DNA from: Methanolobus psychrotolerans
GTDB lineage: Archaea; Halobacteriota; Methanosarcinia; Methanosarcinales; Methanosarcinaceae
Direction: 5' to 3'
Length of the DNA stretch: 64,000 nt
NCBI RefSeq assembly: GCF_002243045.1
Contig: NZ_MBKP01000033.1
Coordinates: 1 to 64,000 of the forward strand
The position numbers and the translations under genes are program-made. Under the pieces are notes generated by a model. The model had not been told where the DNA came from and searched no databases. It saw nothing but the letters and a program-made list of their open reading frames with translations. How positions within the stretch are numbered: the stretch's first letter is position 1; every line of letters starts with the position of its first letter. This document shows positions 35,414-40,018 of the stretch, in pieces.

Positions 35414-35671
35414 GTTTGTAAGATAAATGGAATGGTATTTAAGTTTTTATAAATGAATCTGATGTGAGGGTTGTGAGCTACAGAAATACGTTCAAGAAAC
35501 TCATGAATCGATATAGTCACCAGGTTTCAAAAATAGCTTTTATCAATAAGCAATAATTAGACATAGATTTCACAGATTAACACGGATTTGGCATATAATT
35601 GATACAATATGAGAGTATTATTCACACGGACCCGCGCGGCGTTTAAGAGAACAAAAAATAAACTGGAAGGC

Positions 35672-37549
35672 TTAAAGCCCTCCACTATCCTTCTGCTTTT
35701 TCATGAGAACTATACCAAGCACCAAGACAAATCCTAAAATTGATATCCAGAAAATATAACTGAAATTATTACCATCCACAACAGGTTCACCCTCCTCTAA
35801 AAGAATAGAAACGTCGGTATTTTCTTCAATAACTTCCACAACGGTGTCTTCTACTACCGCAACAGTGTCTTCTACTACCGCATCGATTTTGAACAAGGCA
35901 TAGAGTGAAAAGTGGCTTATCATTGCCGTTGCTTTGCCACTTTCCCAGTCAACAGTTGTTTCCATGGCGATCCATCCACCTTCGGATATGTAGGTGTAGA
36001 TTATCGGAGCTTTGTCCTCAAATTCATCCGGATCGAAATCGATGGTGATCATAACATCCTTATTGAATGTAGTTCCCGAAGGTCCGAAGTCAAAATAAAG
36101 ACCAGAATTAACAACGTCTGCAGGAACATCTGAGGGTAGAGAAGCCGGAACTGTAACTATGATCTTATCCACAGGATTTCCGTAAGGATCAAGAGCTATG
36201 GTTCCTTTTTCAAGCGTTATTGTAGTTTTATCGTCAGACGACTTCACAACAGTCTCAGCTGTTATTTCACCATCCTCATTAACATGCAGATCAGTTATCG
36301 TCCCCTGTGATCTTACTCTTGCAGCCACAGAACTGCCACCGGAAATGGAGGAAACACCGGAATCAGAACTTTCGGAGGTCCTGAAAAGTCCGAATGTACC
36401 GAATTCTGAGATGTTTGCAGAAACATAATTGCCTGTGGTATTGAGTAAAGCATCTGGAACTTCTATCCAGTCTGAACCACTCAACCTAAATAAAGAAACT
36501 GTGGATTCATCATTACTGCTCATTACAGAATCATTATAGGAGAATGTAGTATCCAGATATTGTCCATCTGAACGAGTGATGTTCACATAGCCATTGACAT
36601 TTGTTTTGCCGGGAAATGCCGCAGAACTCGTTTCAATGCCACGGACTCTGATATCGGATGCATCCGTGACGAATGAAACTTGTGCAGAACTGTTGGTCAA
36701 TACCACATCGGTTACTACAAGGTCTGTGGAATTAACTACAGCATCAAATCCGTAATTCCCATTACCAATCGCATGATTCCCTGTTAAGATACCGTTAATG
36801 GAATCACGGATACGGATACCTGTACCTGCATTAGAATTTGCAAGATTGTTTGTCAAAGTGTTATAATTACTTGAGGAAGAAAGATAGATACCATATTGAT
36901 CGTTGTTGCTGGCAGTGATGTTATCAAGAACATTATTACTTGAAGATAATAGATGAACGCCATAATTGTTTTCTGAAACTGTGATATTCTGTATTGTTGA
37001 ATTGCTGGTATATGCAAACAAGACACAATCATATTCATTAGTCAATCCAATATCCCTTACAGTGATGTTCATTGAATTGACCACACAAACAAGTCCTGCA
37101 TCCGAAGGTATTTGCGCATCTGAAGCATTGACCCAGTAGTAGACAGGTTTGCCGTCAATCTGGTTCGTCTGGTCAATATCATGCAGGAAATGTCCCAGCT
37201 CTGAACCTTCAACTGCAAAACTGTAGCCGTTTGATGATATTGTACTATTGCTAAAAATACTGTATTTTGACCTCTCCAGAAAAATACCATTGTCGTTAGA
37301 ACTTACAGTGGTGTTGGTAAAAGTATTGTTATCTGAGGTACCAAGAAGAATAGCGTAGCCATTAGAATTTGTAGTACTATTTATTAGCGTGTTATCATTT
37401 GAGCCAATGAGAGAAATGCCATTGAAAGTGTTGGAATTAGCAGTATTGTTCATCAAAGTATTGTTAACTGCATGACCAAGATAGATACCTACAAAATTAG
37501 AACTGGCATTGTTATCAGTTAAAATATTGTTATTTGAATAAGAGATCAT
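35672..37549 (-). CDS. NosD-type beta-helix surface protein, C-terminal portion (split gene)
   Basis: 625-residue frame beginning inside a parallel beta-helix. Repeats of about 22 residues with N-x-L-x-N-N pattern (for example NNTLMNNTANSN, SSSNYNTLTNNLANSN) fill residues 1-280; then a globular region, a ZU5-like block (TVPASLPSDVPADVVNSG), an acidic stretch and a single C-terminal helix (about 598-616) with a basic KKQK stop-transfer. It has no signal peptide. Its ATG overlaps the stop of the upstream frame by four bases (ATGA), and the repeat register continues across the junction, so it is best read as the second part of one protein of about 1,040 residues. Confidence 0.75.
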   Translation of the reverse strand: MISYSNNNILTDNNASSNFVGIYLGHAVNNTLMNNTANSNTFNGISLIGSNDNTLINSTTNSNGYAILLGTSDNNTFTNTTVSSNDNGIFLERSKYSIFSNSTISSNGYSFAVEGSELGHFLHDIDQTNQIDGKPVYYWVNASDAQIPSDAGLVCVVNSMNITVRDIGLTNEYDCVLFAYTSNSTIQNITVSENNYGVHLLSSSNNVLDNITASNNDQYGIYLSSSSNYNTLTNNLANSNAGTGIRIRDSINGILTGNHAIGNGNYGFDAVVNSTDLVVTDVVLTNSSAQVSFVTDASDIRVRGIETSSAAFPGKTNVNGYVNITRSDGQYLDTTFSYNDSVMSSNDESTVSLFRLSGSDWIEVPDALLNTTGNYVSANISEFGTFGLFRTSESSDSGVSSISGGSSVAARVRSQGTITDLHVNEDGEITAETVVKSSDDKTTITLEKGTIALDPYGNPVDKIIVTVPASLPSDVPADVVNSGLYFDFGPSGTTFNKDVMITIDFDPDEFEDKAPIIYTYISEGGWIAMETTVDWESGKATAMISHFSLYALFKIDAVVEDTVAVVEDTVVEVIEENTDVSILLEEGEPVVDGNNFSYIFWISILGFVLVLGIVLMKKQKDSGGL

Positions 37550-38802
37550 AATCCCAAAGAAAAATTTGAACTTAAGGTATTGTTGACCAGAGTGCTGTTA
37601 TCCGAATAAGAAATAGACATACCCAGAACACCGTTTGACCTTATAATATTATTCGCAATTGAAATATCATTGCTTGAACTAGTAATGCAAATGCCTTGCT
37701 GAGTGTTGTTATTGGCAGTGATGTTATCAATTGTGTTAAAACTAGACGAAAACAGGTGAACACCGTAATAGTTTTCTGATGCCGTAACATTGTATATTAT
37801 TGAATTATCAGTGTATGCAAACAAAACACCGGCATATCCTTGGGTCAATTCAATATCCCTGACGGTAATGTTGGTGGAGTTGATCACACATACAAGTCCT
37901 GCATCTGAAGGTACCTGTTCATCTGAATGATCGATCCAGTAATAGAGTGGTTCGCCATTGACAAGGTTAGTCAGGTCTATATCGTTCAGGAAATTTGCCA
38001 ACTCAGAGCCATTGACTCTGAAATTATAATCATTTAATGACATTAAATTGCCGGTTAGAGTGCTGTTGCCGGAGAAATCAAGAAATATGCCACACAAGGA
38101 ATTGTTAGTGATGGTATTGCTGTTGATATTGTTGTTAATTGAATTATAGATATCAATTCCTGATTCCGGGTTGTCAATAATGGTATTGTTGGTTAGAGTA
38201 TTGTTACCGGAATAGTCTAAATAGATACCATCACAACCGGTGTAACTGATGATATTATCTATCATTGTATTGTTCTCACTTGAAGAGTAAAGAGAAATAC
38301 CATCCCAGCCACTGGAATTGATTATATTTCCGGTCAATATATTGTCAGTTGAATTCTCAAGGTAAATACCGAAGTAATTGTTATAAATCAGGTTGCCTGA
38401 AATGTTACAACTGTAAACAGATGCAAGATAGATTCCAGCCATGCCATCTCCTGCACCAGTGATATTAAATCCGCTTATTGTGACATGGCTTGTGTTATCG
38501 ATATAAAAGACATCATTACCTGATGATGAATTGATGACAGTGGTTGCGAGACCGTTTTCTGAGATAACTGTAAGCGGTTTGCTAATATTTATGTTCTCGG
38601 TGTAAGTACCATCGCTTACAAGAATAGTGTCGCCCGGACTTGCATTATAAACTGCGGCGTTTATAGTGGTGTAGTTATATCCACTACCAGTACCAACAGT
38701 ATAAATAGAAGCTGTAGCTGTTCCTGTGCACAAAAGTAAGATCAATAACAATACTATGTATTTTGGAATTTGAAACCATAAATGTGGAACTATCTTTTGC
38801 AT
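37546..38802 (-). CDS. NosD-type beta-helix surface protein, N-terminal portion (split gene)
   Basis: 418 residues with a signal peptide (hydrophobic about 13-31, then TATAS), a CBM-like opening (IYTVGTGSGYNYTTINAAV) typical of NosD/PGF-pre surface proteins, and a right-handed beta-helix of Asn-rich repeats to the end. It stops at TGA 37546 in the middle of a repeat, and lacks any membrane anchor. A block at about 260-370 (DIDLTNLVNGEPLYYW and following) is repeated in the downstream frame at about residues 118-230. GGGAG precedes ATG 38802. Likely an extracellular adhesin or envelope protein. Confidence 0.78.
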   Translation of the reverse strand: MQKIVPHLWFQIPKYIVLLLILLLCTGTATASIYTVGTGSGYNYTTINAAVYNASPGDTILVSDGTYTENINISKPLTVISENGLATTVINSSSGNDVFYIDNTSHVTISGFNITGAGDGMAGIYLASVYSCNISGNLIYNNYFGIYLENSTDNILTGNIINSSGWDGISLYSSSENNTMIDNIISYTGCDGIYLDYSGNNTLTNNTIIDNPESGIDIYNSINNNINSNTITNNSLCGIFLDFSGNSTLTGNLMSLNDYNFRVNGSELANFLNDIDLTNLVNGEPLYYWIDHSDEQVPSDAGLVCVINSTNITVRDIELTQGYAGVLFAYTDNSIIYNVTASENYYGVHLFSSSFNTIDNITANNNTQQGICITSSSNDISIANNIIRSNGVLGMSISYSDNSTLVNNTLSSNFSLGL

Positions 38803-38884
38803 ACAAACTAATCTCCCTTTGTTCCCTTTGTTATAGATTGGGAGATTGGGATATAAAGAGATGGTGGAAATGACAAATTCTCAA

Positions 38885-39885: not shown

Positions 39886-39902
39886 GTTAAAAATATATCG
39901 AC

Positions 39903-39987
39903 GCTGAGGGGGAGATTCGAACTCCCGCAGCGCGTGAGCACTACCGGTTTTCAAGACCGGCGCCGTAGTCCACTTGGCTACCTCAGC
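39903..39987 (-). tRNA. tRNA-Ser (anticodon UGA)
   Basis: 85-nt gene on the minus strand. Acceptor stem GCTGAGG/CCTCAGC, D arm GCC-(11)-GGC, anticodon stem CCGGT/ACCGG with loop CTTGAAA (anticodon TGA, reads UCA), a long variable arm typical of Ser, and T arm GGGAG-TTCGAAT-CTCCC. No encoded CCA. A T run follows downstream. Confidence 0.96.
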
Positions 39988-40018
39988 ATGTCGGATGGTA
40001 TCTAAATAGCAACTTCAG

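Follow-up and report, generated by a model that had tools for sequence, protein, structure and literature searches.

A beta-helix surface-protein gene of Methanolobus psychrotolerans divided by a frame change at a T run, probably through a recent single-base indel

In the genome of Methanolobus psychrotolerans, two open reading frames on the minus strand of contig NZ_MBKP01000033.1 overlap by a few nucleotides and seem to share out between them the parts of one surface protein. The question that this arrangement raises is whether the frames represent two genes, one gene that is read by a shift of frame, or one gene that was broken, be it in the chromosome or only in the assembly. We analysed the locus within the surrounding 64,000 nucleotides (the window), and compared it with related genomes. 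The elements of the gene are as follows:

38813..38819, minus strand: AAGGGAG, a ribosome-binding-site-like sequence, read from the sequence, that serves the upstream ORF
37546..38802, minus strand: upstream ORF (418 aa) with signal peptide and first beta-helix module, anchor absent
35672..37549, minus strand: downstream ORF (625 aa, counted from the first ATG) with second beta-helix module, C-terminal domain and membrane anchor, signal absent
35702..35764, minus strand: C-terminal hydrophobic anchor FSYIFWISILGFVLVLGIVLM, then KKQK, part of the downstream ORF
35664..35684, minus strand: hairpin resembling a terminator, with a tail rich in T, where the downstream ORF ends

The preliminary description of the locus had assigned a signal without an anchor to the upstream ORF and an anchor without a signal to the downstream one, and both the coordinates and the hydrophobic segments bear this out. 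The upstream product starts with a hydrophobic signal, has no C-terminal hydrophobic segment and breaks off within a beta-helix coil; the downstream product continues the helix, has no signal, and closes with the hydrophobic segment and its KKQK tail. A ribosome-binding-site-like sequence comparable to that of the upstream ORF was looked for 5' of the downstream ATG and not found. That both ORFs belong to the parallel beta-helix proteins, as was also proposed, is confirmed by Pfam and NCBIfam profiles (PF05048/PF13229 and TIGR03804), which both ORFs match above the curated cut-offs. The accompanying label 'NosD-type' holds only as the name of a domain: both parts fall short of NosD_copper_fam (TIGR04247), with 117.4 and 38.8 bits against a cut-off of 300 bits, and although sequence similarity indicates a beta-helix fold in common with NosD, the nitrous oxide reductase maturation protein (PDB 7o0y), nothing points to a NosD function. 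The proper comparison is with the parallel beta-helix surface proteins of the Methanosarcinaceae, with which the gene shares the signal peptide, the repeated coils of 22-24 residues, the C-terminal domain and the hydrophobic anchor with basic tail; the relatives examined are, however, mostly encoded in a single frame, whereas the gene in the window is divided between two. This is thus a single gene for one surface protein, divided by a frame change at a T run, and that part of the preliminary description stands. Within the gene there is an internal duplication, in which residues 29-277 encoded by the downstream ORF share 49% identity over ~250 aa with the translated DNA of positions 37522-38274 (upstream half).

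The idea of two separate genes that are translationally coupled takes its support from the four-nucleotide overlap ATGA, which had been reported before and is indeed seen at 37546-37549. We do not take the ATGA as a sign of coupling, because it is expected by chance whenever an A stands before a TGA stop. Moreover, the junction lies inside a beta-helix coil, and the downstream product would carry an anchor while having neither a signal nor a good ribosome-binding site. The relatives, finally, have signal and anchor in a single frame: this is the case in 34 large beta-helix ORFs from the loci fetched in this and related genomes (the signal scores of L085 and of one ORF of L109 being borderline). 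Coupled genes are therefore a barely credible explanation.

Where exactly the frame changes, and by how much, can be read from the following elements:

37546..37597, minus strand: stretch of 52 nt, stop to stop, that is open in both frames and to which the frame change is confined
37561..37567, minus strand: heptamer A-AAT-TTT in the zero frame
37560..37564, minus strand: T5 run, the likely place of a one-base difference
37542..37555, minus strand: five-pair hairpin GGGAU-UAUG-AUCUC, 5 nt past the heptamer, weak (-1.7 kcal/mol)

The register of the beta-helix (LGMSISYSDNSTLVNNTLSSNF / FGIMISYSNNNILTDNNASSNF) locates the frame change at AAATTTTTC, and a single-frame homologue from G016 aligns straight over the junction, its match leaving frame -2 for frame -1 in the interval 37564-37555. 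Ahead of the zero-frame stop, 52 nt of the -1 frame are free of stops, and the in-frame heptamer noted earlier is found where it was described (37567-37561). A -1 shift at this heptamer reproduces the predicted SNFFFGIMIS and extends the repeat by a normal coil of 23 residues; the joined product has a computed length of 1043 aa and mass of 112 kDa. The preliminary description had further held that the deletion of two T restores exactly the 22-residue repeat. Among 194 spacings from G to G between coils of 40 family proteins, 22 residues is indeed a normal length (38%), but 23 is commoner (45%; 24 accounts for 13%), and within the split protein itself 23 is the most frequent spacing. The 22-residue register is thus no proof that two T have to go, and we reject this as the required change; since the -1 slip yields a 23-residue coil, the most frequent length in the family, a difference of one base suffices.

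A gene that is read by a shift of frame would be expected to occur in split form in other genomes as well. No relative examined is split at this site. A scan of the genome contigs matched only distant archaeal relatives, and a search for strict orthologues, in which the length of the T run could be compared, yielded none among the genomes compared (the nearest match of the C-terminal part is ~60% identical). In five genomes (G012, G024, G016, G001 and G007) the genes that adjoin the same flanking genes are single frames of 994-1312 aa; as four of these five fall in a separate, fully supported clade in the tree of the C-terminal domain, they are best viewed as positional neighbours and not as proven orthologues. 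In five other genomes (G005, G009, G019, G022 and G025) the ORFs listed for the fetched interval between the equivalent flanking genes include no large beta-helix protein, and the split gene therefore appears to be dispensable. Shortly upstream of it, on the minus strand, lies a tRNA-Ser(TGA) (39900-39988), and the stretch adjoining this tRNA differs in gene content among relatives.

Could ribosomes nevertheless shift to the -1 frame at A-AAT-TTT, in a programmed or leaky fashion, so that some full-length, anchored protein is made next to a shorter, secreted form? The heptamer belongs to the class H_HH.U_UU.Y, which is prone to shift in E. coli (PMC4066793), the shift results in a normal coil, both halves are intact, and a small hairpin follows at 5 nt. 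The heptamer is real but constitutes weak evidence: sequences of the form X-XXY-YYZ are common in the long ORFs of the source genome (103 in 109 kb, i.e. ~1 per kb, among which A-AAT-TTT six times), and the chance of finding any such heptamer in a 52-nt overlap is, from these counts, ~5%. A stimulatory structure 5-9 nt 3' of the heptamer is not present beyond chance (z of -0.24 and +0.30 against shuffled sequences, for folds without pseudoknots), and 76% of the gene positions sampled fold equally well as, or better than, the hairpin region. A Shine-Dalgarno-like sequence upstream of the heptamer was looked for in the sequence and not found, and a scan of the window with Rfam matched only a tRNA and no recoding element. 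In E. coli, shift-prone motifs that lack stimulators raise the frequency only 2-10 fold over the no-motif background of ~0.055% (PMC4066793).

There is one reported archaeal precedent for a -1 programmed frameshift, namely fucA1 of Saccharolobus solfataricus (PMC8211752). Like the split gene, it comprises two ORFs whose overlap (40 nt in fucA1, 52 nt here) contains an X-XXY-YYZ heptamer. In the case of fucA1, however, the heptamer A-AAA-AAT is accompanied by a putative stem-loop and tandem rare codons, and the full-length product was shown (PMC8211752), whereas in the split gene the structure does not exceed chance and a full-length product is hypothetical. Programmed frameshifting is possible, with the heptamer as its one support, but we consider it rather improbable that it is in use here, as had been suggested, given the lack of a relative split at this site, the chance-level structure and the abundance of the same type of heptamer in intact genes. 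Antonov et al. treated frame breaks that have no clustered relatives as likely indels or sequencing errors (PMC3711429).

The T run also invites an explanation in terms of transcriptional slippage, as proposed earlier, or of phase variation, by which the full-length protein would be toggled on and off. The run sits right at the junction, and the presence of several broken copies in the family is reminiscent of a contingency repertoire. Nevertheless, the runs that were linked to slippage in many bacteria count about nine bases (PMC1088944), and the T5 run stays below that length; many runs of T5 and longer occur inside intact genes of the source genome, and other copies of the family are broken where there is no slippery sequence. 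We therefore regard slippage or phase variation as very unlikely.

The main rival is a sequencing or assembly error, i.e. a miscounted T run in what is in fact one open frame on the chromosome. The source genome is a 3.16-Mb draft in 106 contigs, the difference amounts to one base within a homopolymer, and both halves are otherwise undamaged. On the other hand, ~38 kb of the window are covered by protein matches to relatives, and the comparison revealed no further genuine break of frame in them, the remaining candidates being antisense or overlapping ORFs as judged from their coordinates. A run of five is short for a homopolymer error, and the long open frames of the source genome hold 138 T5, 45 T6+ and 263 A5+ runs in 109 kb. 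Both this abundance of A or T runs of at least five bases and the lack of a further break in those ~38 kb make an error precisely at this T5 less likely, and on balance we hold it to be an unlikely, though serious, explanation.

Interruptions are not restricted to the gene in the window. Of the 38 family genes inspected, four, that gene included, carry an interruption, each of a different kind. In G026, a one-contig genome, a copy (L116:1020-1180, G026:C1) carries a one-base shift directly after the signal peptide. Like the split gene, it places the signal in a different frame from that of body and anchor; unlike it, the break comes right behind the signal peptide, and the junction contains neither a homopolymer nor a slippery heptamer. 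The intact relative in G015 (L118) reads MASAVTITVGSETGN through the place where the G026 copy breaks. In G007 a beta-helix surface gene (L106, G007:C2:585000-592500) is split by an insertion with a transposase read as IS66-like. In G028 a copy (L105:1257, G028:C1 ~1199756) has an in-frame TAG (GI*LFSSTNN), with the signal upstream and the anchor downstream; because G028 encodes a pyrrolysyl-tRNA synthetase, this TAG might be read as pyrrolysine, which would make the product a pyrrolysine-containing surface protein. The source genome of the split gene encodes a pyrrolysyl-tRNA synthetase as well. Two further candidates were discarded: the apparent split in C112 of G013 is due to a stretch of N, and the 'stop inside' in G002 appears to be a terminal stop. 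That the breaks within one family are so unlike each other argues for the repeated loss of single copies.

Taken together, the single-frame relatives, the unrelated breaks in other copies and the chance-level structure after the heptamer make a recent natural indel of a single base, at the T run of a dispensable multi-copy surface-protein gene, the most likely reading (probability roughly 0.58). The intact form, one of several paralogues, would be a parallel beta-helix surface protein that is secreted and held in the membrane by its anchor. The gene would have been broken by an indel that arose naturally at the T run, such that translation from 38802 to the stop at 37546 would give a secreted fragment of 45 kDa without anchor. 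The anchored half would be made inefficiently, as it has no signal peptide and no good ribosome-binding site; we infer that it is not produced, and that the indel is natural rather than an assembly error. The break is probably recent, since a second disabling change is absent over ~3.1 kb: given that 3.7% of substitutions would introduce a stop codon into the gene, the otherwise intact halves point to a recent break if the gene evolves neutrally. Loss of the gene is probably tolerated. Counterpoints to the indel, besides the chance of a sequencing error, are that the T run happens to create a heptamer whose class shifts readily in E. coli (PMC4066793), and that the intact halves fit a functional recoded gene as well.

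Most likely, then, the locus represents an ordinary gene copy damaged by a frameshift, or else a sequencing error. It is quite improbable that one gene yields two products, one of 45 kDa that is secreted and, in smaller amount, one of 112 kDa that is anchored. If the full-length product were made, the gene would join fucA1 as the second archaeal -1 programmed frameshift to be reported, and recoding would be tied to the release versus the anchoring of a surface protein. If the case is ordinary, it means that members of this family are often lost, with four of 38 genes interrupted in four different ways.
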